From assembly GCF_005155025.1 (NCBI RefSeq), contig NZ_CP039731.1, positions 124,001 through 188,000 on the forward strand: DNA of 64,000 nt. Reading direction: 5' to 3'. Below, piece by piece: positions 5,705 to 10,379 of the stretch. The notes beneath the pieces were generated by a model. That model was not told where the DNA came from, made no database searches, and saw only the letters and a program-made list of their open reading frames with translations. Each line of letters opens with the position of its first letter. The first letter of the stretch is position 1. Source of the DNA: Aquitalea aquatilis. Lineage in GTDB: Bacteria; Pseudomonadota; Gammaproteobacteria; Burkholderiales; Chromobacteriaceae. Both the position numbers and the translations under genes were made by a program.

Positions 5705-6336
5705 GCATGTATACGGTAAAGGAAATCTTCTACACCCTGCAGGGCGAAGGCCGTCAGGCCGGCCGCGCCGCCGTGTTTTGCCGCTTTAGCGGCTGCAATC
5801 TGTGGTCTGGCCGCGAGGAAGACCGCAGCAAGGCAGTCTGCCAGTTCTGCGATACCGATTTTGTCGGCACCGGCCCGGACGGCGGCAAATTCGCCACGGC
5901 AGCCGCGCTGGCTGCGCGCATTGCCAGCCAGTGGCCGGCAGGCAGCGGCGGCACGCCCTATGTGGTGTGCACCGGTGGCGAGCCGCTATTGCAGCTGGAT
6001 ACAGAGCTGATCGCCGCGCTGCATGCCGAGGGCTTTGAAATCGCGGTGGAAACCAATGGCACCATCGCCGCCCCCGCCGGCATCGACTGGATCTGCGTCA
6101 GCCCCAAGGCCGGCGCTCCCTTGCTGCAAACCAGCGGCAACGAACTGAAGCTGGTGTATCCGCAAGCCACCCAGCTGCCGGAAACCGTGGCCCATTTACA
6201 GTTCGATACCTTCTATCTGCAGCCGATGGATGGCCCCGAGCTGGCCGCCAATACCCGCGCCGCCATTGCCTACTGCATGGCACACCCGCGCTGGCGCTTG
6301 TCAGTACAAACCCACAAGGTGGTGAATATCCGCTAA
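5701..6336 (+). CDS. queE: 7-carboxy-7-deazaguanine synthase QueE (radical SAM)
   Basis: Radical-SAM enzyme of 211 residues that contracts the ring of 6-carboxy-tetrahydropterin to 7-carboxy-7-deazaguanine. The cluster cysteines are C32, C47 and C50, a CX14CX2C spacing known for the Burkholderia-type QueE rather than CX3CX2C. YTLQGEG near the N-terminus and CTGGEPL are family signatures. The start codon overlaps the queD stop (ATGA), so the two are translationally coupled. A strong terminator follows, closing the queCDE operon. Confidence 0.93.
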   Translation: MSMYTVKEIFYTLQGEGRQAGRAAVFCRFSGCNLWSGREEDRSKAVCQFCDTDFVGTGPDGGKFATAAALAARIASQWPAGSGGTPYVVCTGGEPLLQLDTELIAALHAEGFEIAVETNGTIAAPAGIDWICVSPKAGAPLLQTSGNELKLVYPQATQLPETVAHLQFDTFYLQPMDGPELAANTRAAIAYCMAHPRWRLSVQTHKVVNIR

Positions 6337-6350
6337 GAGCCGCTCTGAAC

Positions 6351-6380
6351 AATCGGGTGCACAGTCGCCCGATTTTTTTT
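6351..6380 (+). terminator. Rho-independent terminator of queCDE
   Basis: The stem ATCGGG/CCCGAT closes a 10-base loop and is followed by an uninterrupted run of eight T. It begins 15 bases after the queE stop. Confidence 0.85.
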
Positions 6381-6525
6381 GCCTGTCTTTGTAAGAAGCC
6401 ATCCATGTTGCCGACTCATGCTGCAGAGACAGTCACGCAGCAAGTCAGCGAAAAGTATTGAAATATTTACAAAAGCAGCCAATGGCAACCAAATGCAAAT
6501 AATTTCAAAATATTTTCCACTGCGC

Positions 6526-6552
6526 TGTAAGAAAGCCCCGGCCCACGCGACT
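6526..6552 (+). promoter_or_regulatory. Candidate ECF-sigma-type promoter of the bufferin operon
   Basis: TGTAAG at 6526-6531 and CGACT at 6548-6552 are separated by 16 bases, with the first bufA start about 50 bases further on. ECF sigma factors commonly recognise a GTAA-type -35 and a CG-containing -10 at this spacing, and bufferin operons of other bacteria are known to be under ECF control. No ECF sigma gene is present in the window. The match is by eye and could be chance. Confidence 0.4.
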
Positions 6553-6600
6553 GACTCCTGAAACCCGGCACTTGCCGCTTACCCCCGACAGGAGATTGAC

Positions 6601-6867
6601 ATGAACGCTTCCAAGACTTTGCTTGCTTCCGCCCTCGGCGCTGTAGTTAGCCTGGCCGCCCTCACCGCCGCGCCGGCCCAGGCCGCAGAACAGGAAAAAT
6701 GCTATGGCGTGGCCATGGCCGGCATGAACGACTGCGCCTCCGCCACCGGTGCCCATGGCTGTAAAGGCCAGGCCGCCATGGACAAGGACCCGGGTGACTG
6801 GAAGCTGGTGGCCAAAGGTAGCTGCCAACAGATGGGTGGCAATACCATGGCACCAATGAAACAATAA
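6601..6867 (+). CDS. bufA1: DUF2282 protein, BufA1-type bufferin precursor, copy 1
   Basis: Small exported protein of 88 residues. The signal peptide runs to about residue 28 (A-Q-A before A-E-Q-E). The mature part has the four spaced cysteines of DUF2282: C34, C45, C54 and C75, with NDC at 43-45 and KGSC at 72-75. DUF2282 proteins next to DUF692 and DUF2063 genes are bufferins, RiPPs whose cysteines are modified to bind copper in the periplasm. Here the usual HSCAG around the third Cys reads HGCKG. A GACAGGAG site precedes the ATG. A second, more canonical copy follows after 99 bases. Confidence 0.87.
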   Translation: MNASKTLLASALGAVVSLAALTAAPAQAAEQEKCYGVAMAGMNDCASATGAHGCKGQAAMDKDPGDWKLVAKGSCQQMGGNTMAPMKQ

Positions 6868-6888
6868 ACGGTCTATCGTTAACATCAC

Positions 6889-6913
6889 GCCGGCCGGGCT
6901 GCCCGATCCGGCG
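6889..6913 (+). other. GC-rich hairpin between the two bufA genes
   Basis: GCCGGCCGGG and CCCGATCCGGC can pair around CTG with two mismatches. It has no T run, so it is not an ordinary terminator. It could set the ratio of the two precursor transcripts by RNA processing or stability, which is inference only. Confidence 0.35.
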
Positions 6914-6966
6914 CAGATTGCTCACCATCACACCTGCTTGAACCTGCCCCCACAAGGAGAAACACC

Positions 6967-7221
6967 ATGAATGCATCCAAAGCCCTGCTCGCCTCCGCCC
7001 TCGGTGCCGTTGTTGCCATGGGCGCACTCAGCGCCACCCCGGCCGCTGCGGCAGAAAAGGAAAAATGCTTCGGCATCGCCCAGGCCGGCAAGAACGACTG
7101 CGCCGCCGCCAATGGCAGCCACTCCTGCGCCGGTCAGGCCACCAAGGACAAGGACCCGGGCGACTGGAAATACGTCGCCAAGGGCAGCTGTGAAAAAATG
7201 GGCGGCATGCTGGCCAAGTAA
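6967..7221 (+). CDS. bufA1: DUF2282 protein, BufA1-type bufferin precursor, copy 2
   Basis: An 84-residue paralogue of the preceding gene with the same signal-peptide layout and exactly the same cysteine positions (C34, C45, C54, C75). The central block is the family-typical NDC...SHSCAG. Both copies share KDPGDWK and VAKGSC. An AAGGAG site lies 8 bases before the ATG. The near-identical N-termini and the shared spacing indicate tandem duplication, followed by divergence around the second and third Cys. Both are presumably substrates of the DUF692 enzyme encoded next. Confidence 0.88.
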
Positions 7222-7290
7222 TCCGCTCCGGCAGGGTTGCCGGCCACCGCCGGCAGCCACCTCCCCACGTCCCTTCCGGTATCCCTGCTC

Positions 7291-8121
7291 ATGACTCCGT
7301 CTTCCCTTCCCGCTGTCGCCGGCATTGGCCTGCGTGCGCCCCACTATCGTCAGGTACTGGATACCCTGCCGCCGCTAGGCTGGGTGGAAGTCCACAGCGA
7401 AAACTTTTTCGATGGCGGCATGCCACTGGCCATGCTGCAGCGGGTGGCCAGCCACTATCCGCTGTCGCTGCACGGCGTGGGACTGGGCCTGGGTTCGCTG
7501 GTGCGTCCGGACGGAGAACATCTGGCTGCTCTCAAGCGACTGGTGGATGCCATCAACCCGCCAGCGGTATCGGAGCACCTGTCGTTCAACCACAGCGCCC
7601 AGCGCTATGTGAACGACCTGCTGCCCATCCCCTATACCATGGCCGCGCTGGCCGTCATCGCCAGCCATGTGGAGGAAACCCAGCAGGCGCTGGGCCGGCG
7701 CATCCTGCTGGAAAACCTGTCCAGCTATGTGGAGTTTCCCGGCAACGAGATGAACGAAGGCGAGTTTCTGGCCGAACTGGTGGCGCGCACCGGCTGCGGC
7801 CTGCTGCTGGACGTCAACAATCTCTACGTCAACGGCATCAATCTGGGCACGGACGTGCAGGCCGTGCTGGCGGCATTGCCCGCCGCTGCGATTGGCGAAA
7901 TCCATCTGGCCGGCTATAGCGAGGGCGAAGGCATGCTGGTGGATACCCACAGCCAGCCGGTCCATCCCGGCGTGTGGCAGCTATACGCCCAGGTCATCGC
8001 CAGCATTGGCCCACGCCCGACGCTGATCGAATGGGATCTGGACATTCCGCCACTGGACACGCTGCAGGCCGAAGCAGCCAAGGCCGATGCCATCCTGCAA
8101 GGAGCACGCCATGACGCCTGA
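7291..8121 (+). CDS. bufB: DUF692 multinuclear non-heme iron oxidase (BufB/MNIO)
   Basis: A 276-residue TIM-barrel enzyme of the DUF692 family, which uses a two- or three-iron centre to modify cysteines in RiPP precursors. Conserved candidate ligands appear along the barrel: HSEN (35-38), His61, SEH (94-96), Glu141, LDVNN (173-177), EIH (203-205), DTH (218-220) and EWD (247-249). ATG 7291 was chosen because GIGLRAP then sits at its usual position close to the N-terminus; the upstream in-frame TTG has no such support. It follows two DUF2282 genes and overlaps the DUF2063 gene by 11 bases, so it should act on those precursors together with BufC. Confidence 0.92.
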   Translation: MTPSSLPAVAGIGLRAPHYRQVLDTLPPLGWVEVHSENFFDGGMPLAMLQRVASHYPLSLHGVGLGLGSLVRPDGEHLAALKRLVDAINPPAVSEHLSFNHSAQRYVNDLLPIPYTMAALAVIASHVEETQQALGRRILLENLSSYVEFPGNEMNEGEFLAELVARTGCGLLLDVNNLYVNGINLGTDVQAVLAALPAAAIGEIHLAGYSEGEGMLVDTHSQPVHPGVWQLYAQVIASIGPRPTLIEWDLDIPPLDTLQAEAAKADAILQGARHDA

Positions 8122-8860
8122 AGCACGCTGGCAGGCAGAGCTGCTGGAGCTGATTGCCGATACCGAGCAGCAGCCGCATGCCGCACTGGGCCTGAGCCCG
8201 GCCGGACTGGCGGTCTACCGCAACAACTACCGCGTCGGCCTGATCGAAACCCTGAATCTGATCTACCCGGTAACCCGGCAGATCGTCGGGGAAGAATTCA
8301 TGACCGGACTGGCGCGTGAATACAGCAAGCGCTATGCCTCGCACTCGGGCAATCTGCACCGCTATGGCGGCAGCTTTGGTGATTTCCTGCAAGACTTCCC
8401 ACCGGCGCAGGCGCTGCCTTACCTGGCCGATGTCGCCCGGCTGGAATGGGCGGTACACCGCAGCTATTACGCTATCGACCAGACCCCGCTGGTGGCATCG
8501 GCACTGAGCGGCATCAACCCGGAACAATTCGGCCAGCTGCGCTTTGGCGTGAGCGACAGCAGCCGGGCGCTGTCGTCCCCCTGGCCGGTGGTCTCCATCT
8601 GGCAGGGACACCAGACTGGCCAGCAACTGAATGTTGACATGGCATCCGGCGGCGAGCAGGCACTGGTCAGCCGCCACGCCGGCAAGGTCAGCGTACAGGC
8701 GCAAACAGCCGGCATGGCGGCCTTGCTACTGACCCTGCAGGATGGACAGTCACTGGGCGAGGCTGCCGGGCAGGCCTTGTCGGCACAGGATGATTTCGAC
8801 CTGCAAGCCGGCTTGGCGCAGTTATTCGCCGACGGCCTGCTCAGCCACTACCAACTCTAA
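8111..8860 (+). CDS. bufC: DUF2063 protein, bufferin maturation partner BufC
   Basis: A 249-residue protein with the N-terminal DUF2063 domain. Its signature GLAVYRNNYRVGLIETL is followed by YPVTRQIVGEEF and a region of LPYLADVARLEWA type. Members are always found with DUF692 enzymes and are thought to bind or present the precursor to the oxidase. Translation starts inside the end of bufB (ATG 8111, 11-base overlap), with GGAG upstream. The older label 'putative DNA-binding domain' for this family is not supported by the operon context. Confidence 0.9.
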   Translation: MTPEARWQAELLELIADTEQQPHAALGLSPAGLAVYRNNYRVGLIETLNLIYPVTRQIVGEEFMTGLAREYSKRYASHSGNLHRYGGSFGDFLQDFPPAQALPYLADVARLEWAVHRSYYAIDQTPLVASALSGINPEQFGQLRFGVSDSSRALSSPWPVVSIWQGHQTGQQLNVDMASGGEQALVSRHAGKVSVQAQTAGMAALLLTLQDGQSLGEAAGQALSAQDDFDLQAGLAQLFADGLLSHYQL

Positions 8861-8930
8861 GACCAGGCTTGTCCACCATCCGCCACCACGGCGGAGGGGC
8901 GCGGCTTGCCCACTTCACGGGAGACCGACC

Positions 8931-9398
8931 ATGCAAGTTCTCAGACAAAAACTGCTGCCGCTGCAGCGGCTGTTCGACCAGGCCAGTCACTCTGCCCGCC
9001 CGCTGGTGCTGCTGCTGTTCCGGCTGTGGGTGGCAAATGTATTTTTCAAGTCCGGCCTCACCAAGCTGGACGACTGGGACACCACGGTCTTGCTGTTTAC
9101 CGAGGAATACCACGTCCCGCTACTGCCGCCGGTACTGGCGGCGCTGATGGGCACTTTTGGCGAAACGGTGTTCTCCAGCCTGCTGGTCGCCGGCCTGTTT
9201 GGCCGCTTTGCCGCCGCCGGGCTATTCGTGGTCAACCTGATGGCCGTCATCAGCTACCCCGGTCTCACCGACATCACCCGCCAGTTCCACTACTACTGGG
9301 GCATGTTGCTGCTGGCACTGTTCGCCTTCGGCCCCGGCTGCCTGTCGCTGGATGCGGCCTGGCGAAGCTGGCGCGGCAAGGGTCGCCAATTGGGCTGA
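8931..9398 (+). CDS. DoxX family membrane protein
   Basis: A 155-residue inner-membrane protein with four predicted helices in the DoxX arrangement. It has the family-typical ANVFFKSGLTKL stretch, and FGETVFSSLLVAGLFGRFAA forms a helix pair. DoxX genes are regular last members of bufferin operons, where their role is unknown; they may handle redox equivalents for the modified peptides. It lies 70 bases after bufC on the same strand. ATG 8931 is preceded by GGGAG, and the long upstream open frame overlapping bufC is a reading-frame artefact. Confidence 0.85.
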   Translation: MQVLRQKLLPLQRLFDQASHSARPLVLLLFRLWVANVFFKSGLTKLDDWDTTVLLFTEEYHVPLLPPVLAALMGTFGETVFSSLLVAGLFGRFAAAGLFVVNLMAVISYPGLTDITRQFHYYWGMLLLALFAFGPGCLSLDAAWRSWRGKGRQLG

Positions 9399-9536
9399 AA
9401 ACTGACGGCCTGAAAACTGACGACATTGGCGACGCTGTGCAGACAGCGCCCCGGCCGGCTCGGGCGCACGGACATTCCGACAGACTGCCCGGCAGTGGCA
9501 TAATGGCGTATTGCCCAACTCCACATCCGCCCGCCC

Positions 9537-10379
9537 ATGTCTCTTACCCTCGTCATCCAGTCCCCCCGTCTCGACAGCAAGGAACTGCAGGAACTGGCCG
9601 CACTGGCCGGTGCCAGCAGCGTCAGCCAGCCCACGCTGGAATCTGCCCGGATGGAACAGGCCGACCCGGCCAGCCGTGACGCCATCAGCGCCTGCTGCCA
9701 GGCACTGGGCTACGACTTCGCCTTTGTCGACGGCAAGCTGCAACTGGCTGACTTTGGCCTGTTGGTGTCCGATATGGACTCCACCCTGATCACCATCGAG
9801 TGCATCGACGAAATCGCCGACATGCAGGGCATCAAGCCACAGGTGGCAGCCATTACCGAGCGCTCGATGCGCGGCGAGCTGGACTTCTCCGCCTCGCTGC
9901 GCGAACGGGTGAGCCTGCTGGCAGGCCTGCCGGAAAGCGCGCTGGAAAAGGTCTATCAAGAACGCCTGCAACTGAGCCCCGGCGCCGAGCAGCTGCTGGC
10001 CAGCTGCAAGCAGCATGGCATCCGCTTCATGCTGGTTTCCGGCGGTTTCACCTTCTTTACCGAAAGACTCAAGCAGCAACTGGGGCTGGACTATGCCTAT
10101 GCCAACCAGCTGGAAGTGGTGGATGGCAAGCTGACCGGCCGCGTGGTGGGCGAGATTGTCGATGCCGCCGCCAAGCAGCGCCTGCTGATCGAAAAACGCG
10201 AACAACTGGGCTTGCGCCCGGACCAGGTCATCGCCATGGGCGATGGTGCCAACGACCTGCTGATGCTGGGTGAAGCCGGCGTCGGCATTGCCTACCGTGC
10301 CAAACCGGTGGTACAGGCCCAGGCCAATGTCGCCATCAATGTCATGGGGCTGGACGGCGTCAGCAGACTGTTCGCCTGA
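9537..10379 (+). CDS. serB: Phosphoserine phosphatase SerB
   Basis: HAD-superfamily phosphatase for the last step of serine synthesis, 280 residues. The nucleophile loop SDMDST contains Asp79 and Asp81. The later HAD motifs are VSGGFTFF and GDGANDL. The N-terminal 70 residues form the shorter ACT-like regulatory part seen in beta-proteobacterial SerB. A PilZ-like gene starts 23 bases downstream, probably in the same transcript. The 138 bases upstream hold a tandem direct repeat of TGAAAACTGACG at 9396-9423 and a small hairpin without a T run. Confidence 0.94.
   Translation: MSLTLVIQSPRLDSKELQELAALAGASSVSQPTLESARMEQADPASRDAISACCQALGYDFAFVDGKLQLADFGLLVSDMDSTLITIECIDEIADMQGIKPQVAAITERSMRGELDFSASLRERVSLLAGLPESALEKVYQERLQLSPGAEQLLASCKQHGIRFMLVSGGFTFFTERLKQQLGLDYAYANQLEVVDGKLTGRVVGEIVDAAAKQRLLIEKREQLGLRPDQVIAMGDGANDLLMLGEAGVGIAYRAKPVVQAQANVAINVMGLDGVSRLFA

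Follow-up and report, generated by a model that had tools for sequence, protein, structure and literature searches.

Whether one maturation system can serve several substrates is an acknowledged open question for bufferin clusters (PMC12452194). An operon of Aquitalea aquatilis, found in the 64,000-nucleotide stretch of DNA analyzed here (the window), offers a clean natural test of it, with a single MNIO gene in the genome and two diverged precursors, both under selection. The precursors differ in how many methionines they carry and in the residue that follows one of the core cysteines. The locus could show whether a BufB accepts a Cys-Lys pair without the Asp of BufB2, and whether the diversity of metal ligands in bufferins extends past cysteine.

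A predicted Buf1-type operon with two precursor genes

Judged by its domains, the region 6601-9398 of the window is a Buf1-type (DUF2282) bufferin/captophorin operon of an Aquitalea genome, in which bufA-1 (copy 1), bufA-2 (copy 2), the MNIO gene, the gene for its DUF2063 partner and a DoxX gene follow one another on one strand. The features of the locus are as follows.

6351..6374, + strand: terminator-like hairpin after queE (9-bp stem, T-tract), marking the upstream boundary
6391..6416, + strand: distal ECF-sigma-type promoter motif, GTAAGAA-N14-CGACT (chance expectation in the window, 0.00)
6527..6552, + strand: proximal ECF-sigma-type promoter motif, GTAAGAA-N14-CGACT (motif scan)
6601..6867, + strand: bufA-1, DUF2282 precursor (88 aa; 76.1 bits; rich in Met, with its second core Cys in a CKG motif)
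6967..7221, + strand: bufA-2, DUF2282 precursor (84 aa; canonical NDC...HSCAG; 84.9 bits)
7222..7290, + strand: bufA-2/bufB spacer, containing a stable RNA hairpin
7291..8121, + strand: bufB, MNIO (DUF692) bufferin maturase (276 aa; PF05114, 343.3 bits)
8111..8860, + strand: bufC, DUF2063 MNIO partner, putative PME-type 1 (249 aa; 73.6 bits)
8931..9398, + strand: DoxX family membrane protein (155 aa; 56.5 bits)

All five proteins score above their Pfam gathering cut-offs (22.4 bits for DUF2282, 25 for PF05114, 27.2 for DUF2063 and 23.6 for DoxX), and the MNIO exceeds the cut-off of the curated NCBIfam BufB model NF050167 (355.4 versus 310 bits), which bears out the bufferin-type assignment of an earlier, sequence-only reading. 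That reading began the operon at 6526, where no gene starts; the position coincides with the proximal ECF-type motif. BufC matched the HvfC model over residues 8-239 at 50.5 bits, under the cut-off of 142, and had no match in a PDB sequence search at E 0.01; the DoxX protein matched HvfX at 48.3 bits, under the cut-off of 80. A DoxX gene is frequent, albeit not universal, in Buf1 clusters, and is present here. The upstream neighbor is queE (NCBIfam TIGR04508, 364 bits against a cut-off of 240), and seven terminator-like sites lie within 6200-9600, versus 2.6 expected from shuffles.

A GGAG precedes the start codons of both bufA-1 and bufA-2, and no ribosome site is obvious for bufB. The bufA-2/bufB spacer folds with a z of -2.03 (7/200 shuffles fold as well) and is poorly conserved in sequence across Aquitalea. 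Together, the hairpin and the lack of an obvious ribosome site hint, weakly, that less enzyme than precursor may be made. Between bufA-1 and bufA-2, RNA structure was no better than in shuffles (z 0.23).

The Buf1 operon of Caulobacter vibrioides/crescentus (CC3254-CC3257), regulated by sigma-F, resembles the Aquitalea operon in its DUF2282-MNIO-DUF2063-DoxX order, four cysteines, leader and ECF-type promoter (PMC12452194, PMC3511200). The promoter sequences differ (GTAACC-N16-CGAA versus a duplicated GTAAGAA-N14-CGACT), and the A. aquatilis genome has two precursors for its one MNIO and no NrsF match. The gig operon of Cupriavidus metallidurans (gigPABT, divergent from rpoQ-rsqA) holds the same four gene families in identical order; it is induced by copper and gold and adjoins the genes of an ECF sigma factor and a putative anti-sigma factor (PMC10304878, PMC5413113). 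It has a single precursor, whereas Aquitalea has two, with a candidate ECF about 2.3 Mb away. Bufferin clusters with tandem precursors, several per MNIO-PME1 pair, have already been reported, and it has been suggested that a single MNIO complex could act on more than one of them; the introduction, results and discussion of that article describe no Met-rich or CKG copy (PMC12452194). The paired-precursor architecture is known, and the Met-rich copy 1 is an unusual variant.

Cysteines, leaders and core motifs of the precursors

Comparison loci were obtained by MNIO patterns (best 80 of 129), a family search across 399 genomes from the order, and protein searches with copy 1 (369 genomes from the class, 398 from the phylum); up to the 30 best loci per search were read, together with 140 hand-chosen regions, a sampling that the copy 1 queries bias toward copy 1-like sequences. 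Identical cores were counted once.

The two Aquitalea aquatilis precursors have their cysteines at the same positions (34, 45, 54 and 75), as had been noted, and all four are invariant across a 66-sequence alignment. Both copies carry a hydrophobic leader of 28 residues ending in Ala-X-Ala, as judged by inspection, and this length recurs in both copies in 9/9 Aquitalea lineages. Within one genome, the leaders of the two copies share a mean identity of 73%; gene conversion of the leader is at most hinted at, in a single genome (L116).

The contrast between HGCKG and AGMNDC in copy 1 and HSCAG and AGKNDC in copy 2 had been correctly read, and both copy 1 motifs had been called unusual. This holds for HGCKG: Lys follows the second core Cys in 12/306 unique cores (a count excluding the ten loci L223-L232), eight of them Aquitalea copy 1 sequences. 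It does not hold for AGMNDC, as Met occupies the third position ahead of the first core Cys in 31/223 unique cores (19 single-copy, eight Aquitalea copy 1). In 227/232 single-copy unique cores, the residue next after the second core Cys is small (Ala, Ser or Gly); among tandem members, seven residue types occur there. We dropped the idea that Lys at this position is confined to tandem copies when 0/155 single-copy cores became 2/232 with wider sampling. These two precursors (L258 and L271, from one genus outside the class) are MNIO linked; therefore, CKG need not mean a different modification.

We also considered copy 1 as a BufA2 hybrid and did not adopt this view: the matches to the BufA2 model all lie below its cut-off and are not confined to upstream copies. 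Copy 1 scores 27.3 bits against a cut-off of 60 and has 4 Cys, versus 6 or 12 in BufA2, placing it outside BufA2/Buf2, and copy 2 has no match. In Aquitalea and one Chromobacterium, only the upstream copy is matched, whereas in AP218F the canonical copy, and in L139 both copies, also match below the cut-off (10 proteins tested). Copy 1 shares with the BufA2/Cys-Lys captophorins the Cys-Lys motif at one of its core cysteines (PMC12668002); unlike BufA2, it belongs to DUF2282 and has 4 Cys, and its MNIO has Leu at the position equated with the BufB2 Asp. A fold search with a copy 1 model found no PDB match at E 0.001, and a PDB sequence search at E 1 gave one chance-level match. Among plasmids, 60 records matched DUF2282, none reaching 80% query coverage.

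Methionine enrichment of copy 1

Mature copy 1 contains 4 to 9 methionines (mean, 6.25; 8 unique Aquitalea sequences), mostly beyond the range of single-copy relatives, whose mature regions average 1.26 (242 unique sequences, one with at least 6); mature copy 2 has 1 or 2. Some of these residues are paired as M-x-x-M, both ahead of the first core Cys and at the C terminus, and 7/8 copy 1 sequences have two or more M-X(1-2)-M motifs, versus 1/242 single-copy ones. A Met-rich copy 1 is present in every Aquitalea genome examined, with CKG and TMAPM kept in 9/9 lineages and MxGM in 8/9. The upstream copies of Chromobacterium, with 2 or 3 Met, are not Met rich; hence, the precursor pair itself does not require enrichment, which, being confined to one genus, may reflect one evolutionary event. 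On sequence grounds, Met enrichment is a better clue to a different modification or metal preference than CKG or AGMNDC. It had gone unmentioned in the sequence-only reading and is a stronger difference between the copies than HGCKG.

Distribution and selection of the pairs

Precursor pairs occur in 9/9 Aquitalea lineages and in 11/11 Chromobacterium loci fetched. In Photobacterium, 14/21 loci fetched hold pairs whose two cores match fully (four loci) or almost fully. Purifying selection acts on both Aquitalea copies (pooled pN/pS of about 0.15; median dN/dS over 36 pairs each, 0.097 for copy 1 and 0.081 for copy 2), with copy 1 reaching a dS of up to 1.16 from the window sequence. The HGCKG copies form their own clade, as the earlier reading had raised (9 rows, 100/98, in a tree of 87 columns). 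A tree uniting Aquitalea copy 1 with eight upstream copies (seven Chromobacterium and AP218F) outscored the free tree by 3.26 log units (p-AU 0.594), and one with an Aquitalea-only duplication was 4.36 worse (p-AU 0.413) and also not rejected; on 87 columns, the AU test rejects neither one nor several duplications for Aquitalea and Chromobacterium.

The maturation enzymes and substrate tolerance

The genome contains one MNIO match and two DUF2282 genes, so a single maturation system acting on both substrates, as proposed earlier, is the sole option in this genome if both are modified. In BufB2, an Asp is thought to contact the substrate Lys; the window MNIO has Leu at the equated position. Across 266 loci, grouped by the residue after the second core Cys of the precursor, the MNIO site after the catalytic Asp is nonpolar (A, V, L, I, M or F) in 14/14 Lys/Val/Tyr-type, 93/248 small-residue and 0/4 Gln/His loci, a count that leaves out nine duplicate loci and loci lacking an MNIO frame of at least 200 aa with the motif, that uses a residue grouping chosen after the data were seen, and in which one fetch pattern, IEWDLDIP, favors Leu at this site. 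It reduces to 4 to 6 independent pairs, none contrary, and is not significant (median p 0.25). We equate the site with FonB-Phe250 by the motif and an alignment with 3BWW, which has Asp-Phe there, FonB itself lying outside the alignment. The covariation points to an MNIO that may tolerate Lys.

A model for the two peptides

The copper role and the thiooxazole chemistry are taken from relatives (PMC12452194, PMC12668002). Gene content, the single MNIO, conservation, selection, the promoter motif and the Met/Lys enrichment are directly observed; modification, disulfide formation, export, regulation and metal preference we infer as follows. The operon would probably be under an ECF sigma factor, and the MNIO/DUF2063 complex would oxidize the two central cysteines of each leader-bearing precursor to 5-thiooxazoles; preliminary results in other work make the signal peptide part of the sequence recognized by BufB-BufC (PMC12452194). 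The peptides would be exported, their outer cysteines forming a disulfide, and would sequester copper in the periplasm. BufA-2 would be the canonical peptide and BufA-1 a conserved, specialized paralog that kept the four cysteines and leader and gained Lys and methionines, the latter most likely serving as further thioether ligands, which would broaden the range of copper bound (Cu(I), or a higher loading). That one MNIO complex matures both peptides, with copy 1 adding thioether ligands, is the most likely reading; for the whole model, with BufA-1 specialized in this way, we see an even chance. Against the model stand the failure of FonBC on charged residues (below), the Leu at the position equated with the BufB2 Asp, the restriction of Met enrichment to a single genus, and the Chromobacterium upstream copies that lack it.

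A second copy might simply supply more bufferin, the changes in copy 1 being tolerated drift without functional effect. The Photobacterium pairs show that duplicates can persist while diverging little, flanking residues vary (as in the seven types seen in tandem members), and there is little conservation around Cys in DUF2282 (PMC12668002). However, the copy 1 differences are held at a low dN/dS despite the large dS, CKG and TMAPM persist in all nine Aquitalea lineages, and the Met count falls mostly outside the single-copy range, so that we regard a pure dosage effect as somewhat unlikely. Alternatively, Lys could block the second thiooxazole, giving a mixed-ligand peptide in which methionines accompany a single heterocycle and a free thiol. 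FonBC, a Lys-Cys-type enzyme, failed on motifs in which Cys precedes a charged residue (QCEKA, HNDCK and NACKG; PMC12668002), and nearly all single-copy cores have a small residue after the second core Cys. Yet CKG occurs in single-copy MNIO-linked precursors, the Cys-Lys group includes BufA2 (PMC12668002), and the MNIO site is nonpolar in every Lys/Val/Tyr locus, as if the residue were accommodated (the nonsignificant trend above); partial modification thus appears unlikely. That copy 1 is no substrate at all, and binds copper as an unmodified methionine/cysteine peptide, seems very improbable: unmodified extra precursors have been raised as an alternative (PMC12452194), but copy 1 retains its four cysteines, NDC core and leader and is the first gene of an operon holding the MNIO.

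Extending the preferred model of two matured peptides, copy 1 could represent a new functional bufferin type, a mixed-ligand metallophore that joins thiooxazole(s) to M-x-x-M thioether sites and works with a canonical partner. One maturase would then yield two peptides differing in copper oxidation-state or affinity range, and which residue is allowed after the modified Cys would be set by the one that follows the catalytic Asp in the MNIO. We offer this extension as a doubtful, tentative proposal.

Promoter motifs and a candidate regulator

The proximal motif is exact in 9/9 Aquitalea lineages and the distal one in 6/9, its last base being altered in the other three; in Chromobacterium, 11/11 loci have one exact upstream site. 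A candidate ECF sigma gene with its anti-sigma gene lies at the above distance along the contig and is close kin of ECFs encoded beside DUF2282 operons in related bacteria, suggesting that it may control the bufferin operon. Two observations count against this regulator. In C. metallidurans, an RpoQ-dependent gig start was not demonstrated, and rpoQ deletion raised gig expression (PMC10304878). A looser form of the motif had 3 matches genome-wide, versus 8 for a reversed control, and we claim no regulon for it. It was present in 75/222 other loci (a redundant set, scanned without a shuffled control), none of them from Photobacterium or Vibrio. The third genome-wide match lies near a thioredoxin-disulfide reductase gene.

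A bufferin operon with two unlike precursors

Judged from its genes, the window operon is a genuine bufferin operon that looks functional; both its kind and its tandem architecture are known. What is new, as far as the literature searched (without supplements) shows, is a pairing present in every Aquitalea lineage examined: one maturase is accompanied by a canonical DUF2282 peptide and by a paralogue that is rich in methionine and has the Cys-Lys motif. The operon sits between queE (TIGR04508) and serB (TIGR00338), both above NCBIfam cut-offs, and comprises five genes:

6601-6867, bufA-1, DUF2282 precursor (copy 1)
6967-7221, bufA-2, DUF2282 precursor (copy 2)
7291-8121, bufB, the DUF692 maturase (MNIO)
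8111-8860, bufC, the DUF2063 partner, overlapping bufB
8931-9398, DoxX gene

All five exceed their Pfam cut-offs and the MNIO also exceeds the curated BufB cut-off, bearing out the bufferin-type operon proposed in the sequence-only reading; the identical cysteine positions that it described (34, 45, 54, and 75 in each precursor) were likewise found. Two DUF692 proteins of solved structure, 3BWW and 8HCI, align with the MNIO, whose nearest named records are from Aquitalea (98% identity to A. aquatica and 97% to A. magnusonii and A. palustris). A search of the whole host genome (4.36 Mb, one contig) returned two DUF2282 genes and one MNIO. Therefore, the idea of one maturation system for two substrates holds if both precursors are modified by their own genome's enzyme.

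Methionine content is the strongest outlier of copy 1. Its mature part contains 4 to 9 methionines (mean, 6.25; 8 unique sequences), that of copy 2 contains 1 or 2 (7 unique sequences), and single-copy mature regions average 1.26 (n = 242; five with at least 5). At least two M-X(1-2)-M motifs occur in 7/8 copy 1 sequences, 1/242 single-copy sequences, and 0/72 other tandem sequences; one or more are present in 8/8, 12/242, and 2/72, respectively, and in 3/7 copy 2 sequences. In other periplasmic proteins, M-x-x-M pairs bind Cu(I). AlphaFold2, given a 66-sequence alignment, models the mature part of copy 1 with confidence (block means of pLDDT, 84 to 95), and a fold search with this model matched no solved fold at an E value of 0.001.

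Residues beside the core cysteines and the maturase

The core survey covered 310 loci with 371 DUF2282 domains, yielding 306 unique cores (74 tandem and 232 single). The residue after the second core cysteine is Ala, Ser, or Gly in 227/232 single and 60/74 tandem cores, and thus conserved in our sample, in contrast to the little-conserved cysteine flanks described for DUF2282 in PMC12668002. HGCKG, singled out earlier as unusual, is indeed so: Lys follows the second core cysteine in 10/74 tandem cores (8 from Aquitalea, one from AP218F, and one from G553, a genome of the same class) and 2/232 single cores (from two MNIO-encoding genomes, which belong to a single genus of a different class). 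In tandem loci with this Lys in one copy, the partner copy always has Ala. After the first core cysteine, Lys or Gln is commoner (30/232 single cores). The methionine of AGMNDC, also thought unusual, proved ordinary (31/223 unique cores). The single-copy CKG precursors, at loci L258 and L271, read TTCKG and accompany an MNIO with Ala at the selectivity site, the residue after the catalytic Asp.

We equated this site with the presumed contact site for the substrate Lys, which in Cys-Lys-type enzymes such as BufB2 is an Asp (PMC12668002); the window MNIO differs in having Leu there. According to the same source, a charged residue following Cys is not accepted by FonBC, which belongs to another subgroup. 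Across 266 loci, the site is nonpolar in 14/14 with a Lys/Val/Tyr-type residue after the second core cysteine, 93/248 with a small residue, and 0/4 with Gln or His, a covariation of consistent direction that is not significant, with only 4 to 6 phylogenetically independent pairs. Since two single-copy CKG precursors exist, we argue that Lys at this position would be compatible with being a substrate.

Distribution and constraint of the pair

Two adjacent DUF2282 genes occur in 9/9 Aquitalea lineages (the window, seven named loci, and one further genome), in all 11 Chromobacterium loci fetched, and in a record titled Xenophilus sp. AP218F; overall, 58/310 loci of the redundant set are tandem. 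A single gene is present in Gulbenkiania, in Paludibacterium, in one further genus, and at five loci of yet another genus of the family; in G367, a genome of that last genus, a family search found no DUF2282. The same-strand queE upstream and serB downstream recur in 11/11 Chromobacterium loci and in Gulbenkiania. In the tree, Aquitalea copy 1 sequences group together (support, 100/98), so that the HGCKG copy of this genus forms its own clade there; upstream copies from seven Chromobacterium loci and AP218F form a separate one (100/99). Both clades may stem from one duplication or from separate ones. In the other four Chromobacterium loci (L044 to L047: two of C. haemolyticum and one each of C. 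aquaticum and C. alkanivorans), the divergent copy is the downstream one (HYCAGE). The AP218F record (L050, NJIE01000033.1) clusters with Chromobacterium at this locus and may carry the wrong name; in its copy 1, both core cysteines are followed by Lys.

Purifying selection acts on each of the two Aquitalea copies, with pooled pN/pS values of 0.155 and 0.143 and median dN/dS values of 0.097 and 0.081 (36 pairs each) for copies 1 and 2, respectively.

Maturation and regulation

In studied relatives, an MNIO and its DUF2063 partner together convert Cys to 5-thiooxazole with a loss of 4 Da each; Buf1 bears thiooxazoles on its two central cysteines and a disulfide between the outer two, and the peptides are copper-binding and protective when copper is in excess (PMC12452194, PMC12668002). 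By homology, the same chemistry would be expected here. The gig operon of C. metallidurans, which is copper-induced, comprises the same DUF2282/DUF692/DUF2063/DoxX families (PMC10304878), and the Legionella promoter of this operon responds to copper in a condition-dependent way, decrease included (PMC5413113). Paired leaders within Aquitalea genomes are of equal length and on average 73% identical, a likeness that fits one recognition complex for both precursors. GGAG precedes the start codon of each precursor gene; ahead of bufB there is a stable hairpin, and no ribosome site is evident, an arrangement that would favor precursor over enzyme; this idea is weakened because the bufA-2/bufB spacer is poorly conserved across Aquitalea.

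Two exact GTAAGAA-N14-CGACT sites, a motif of the ECF-sigma promoter type, lie upstream of bufA-1 (6391-6416 and 6527-6552; 0.00 expected by chance in the window). The exact site recurs in 9/9 Aquitalea lineages and 11/11 Chromobacterium loci, and it or a looser TGTAA...CGA(C/A) form in 75/222 DUF2282 loci scanned (a redundant set, the looser form without a shuffled control), none of them from Photobacterium or Vibrio. The motif is duplicated in Aquitalea, and most other loci scanned have one or none. It is similar to GTAACC-N16-CGAA, the sigma-F promoter mapped by experiment at DUF2282 operons of Caulobacter (PMC3511200). The genome has six matches to sigma-70 region 2, among them:

L232:1471-2198 (fetched locus; about 2.47 Mb in its own genome), candidate cognate ECF sigma factor (TIGR02943), after radA and followed by a small anti-sigma factor

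This ECF is the best candidate regulator of the operon, because it is closer kin to the ECFs encoded beside DUF2282 genes at other loci (E values down to 2e-53) than is the genome's RpoE (at best 9e-14); we infer the assignment from this kinship only. Its gene lies ~2.3 Mb from the buf operon, and the sole motif match at its locus is a loose one within the ECF gene. A genome-wide motif scan found no regulon, and the genome has no match to the NrsF anti-sigma factor. In C. metallidurans, rpoQ adjoins gig, whose expression rose on rpoQ deletion; the authors nonetheless assume RpoQ control, RpoQ-dependent initiation not having been demonstrated (PMC10304878).

The Burkholderia glumae plasmid NZ_CP066793.1 (L320) carries an annotated DUF2282-DUF692-DUF2063-like-DoxX operon. 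DUF2282 genes also stand in tandem at 14/21 Photobacterium loci (L055 to L076); the cores of these pairs match exactly or almost exactly, and they offer a natural case of dosage alone with which to compare the diverged pair of Aquitalea.
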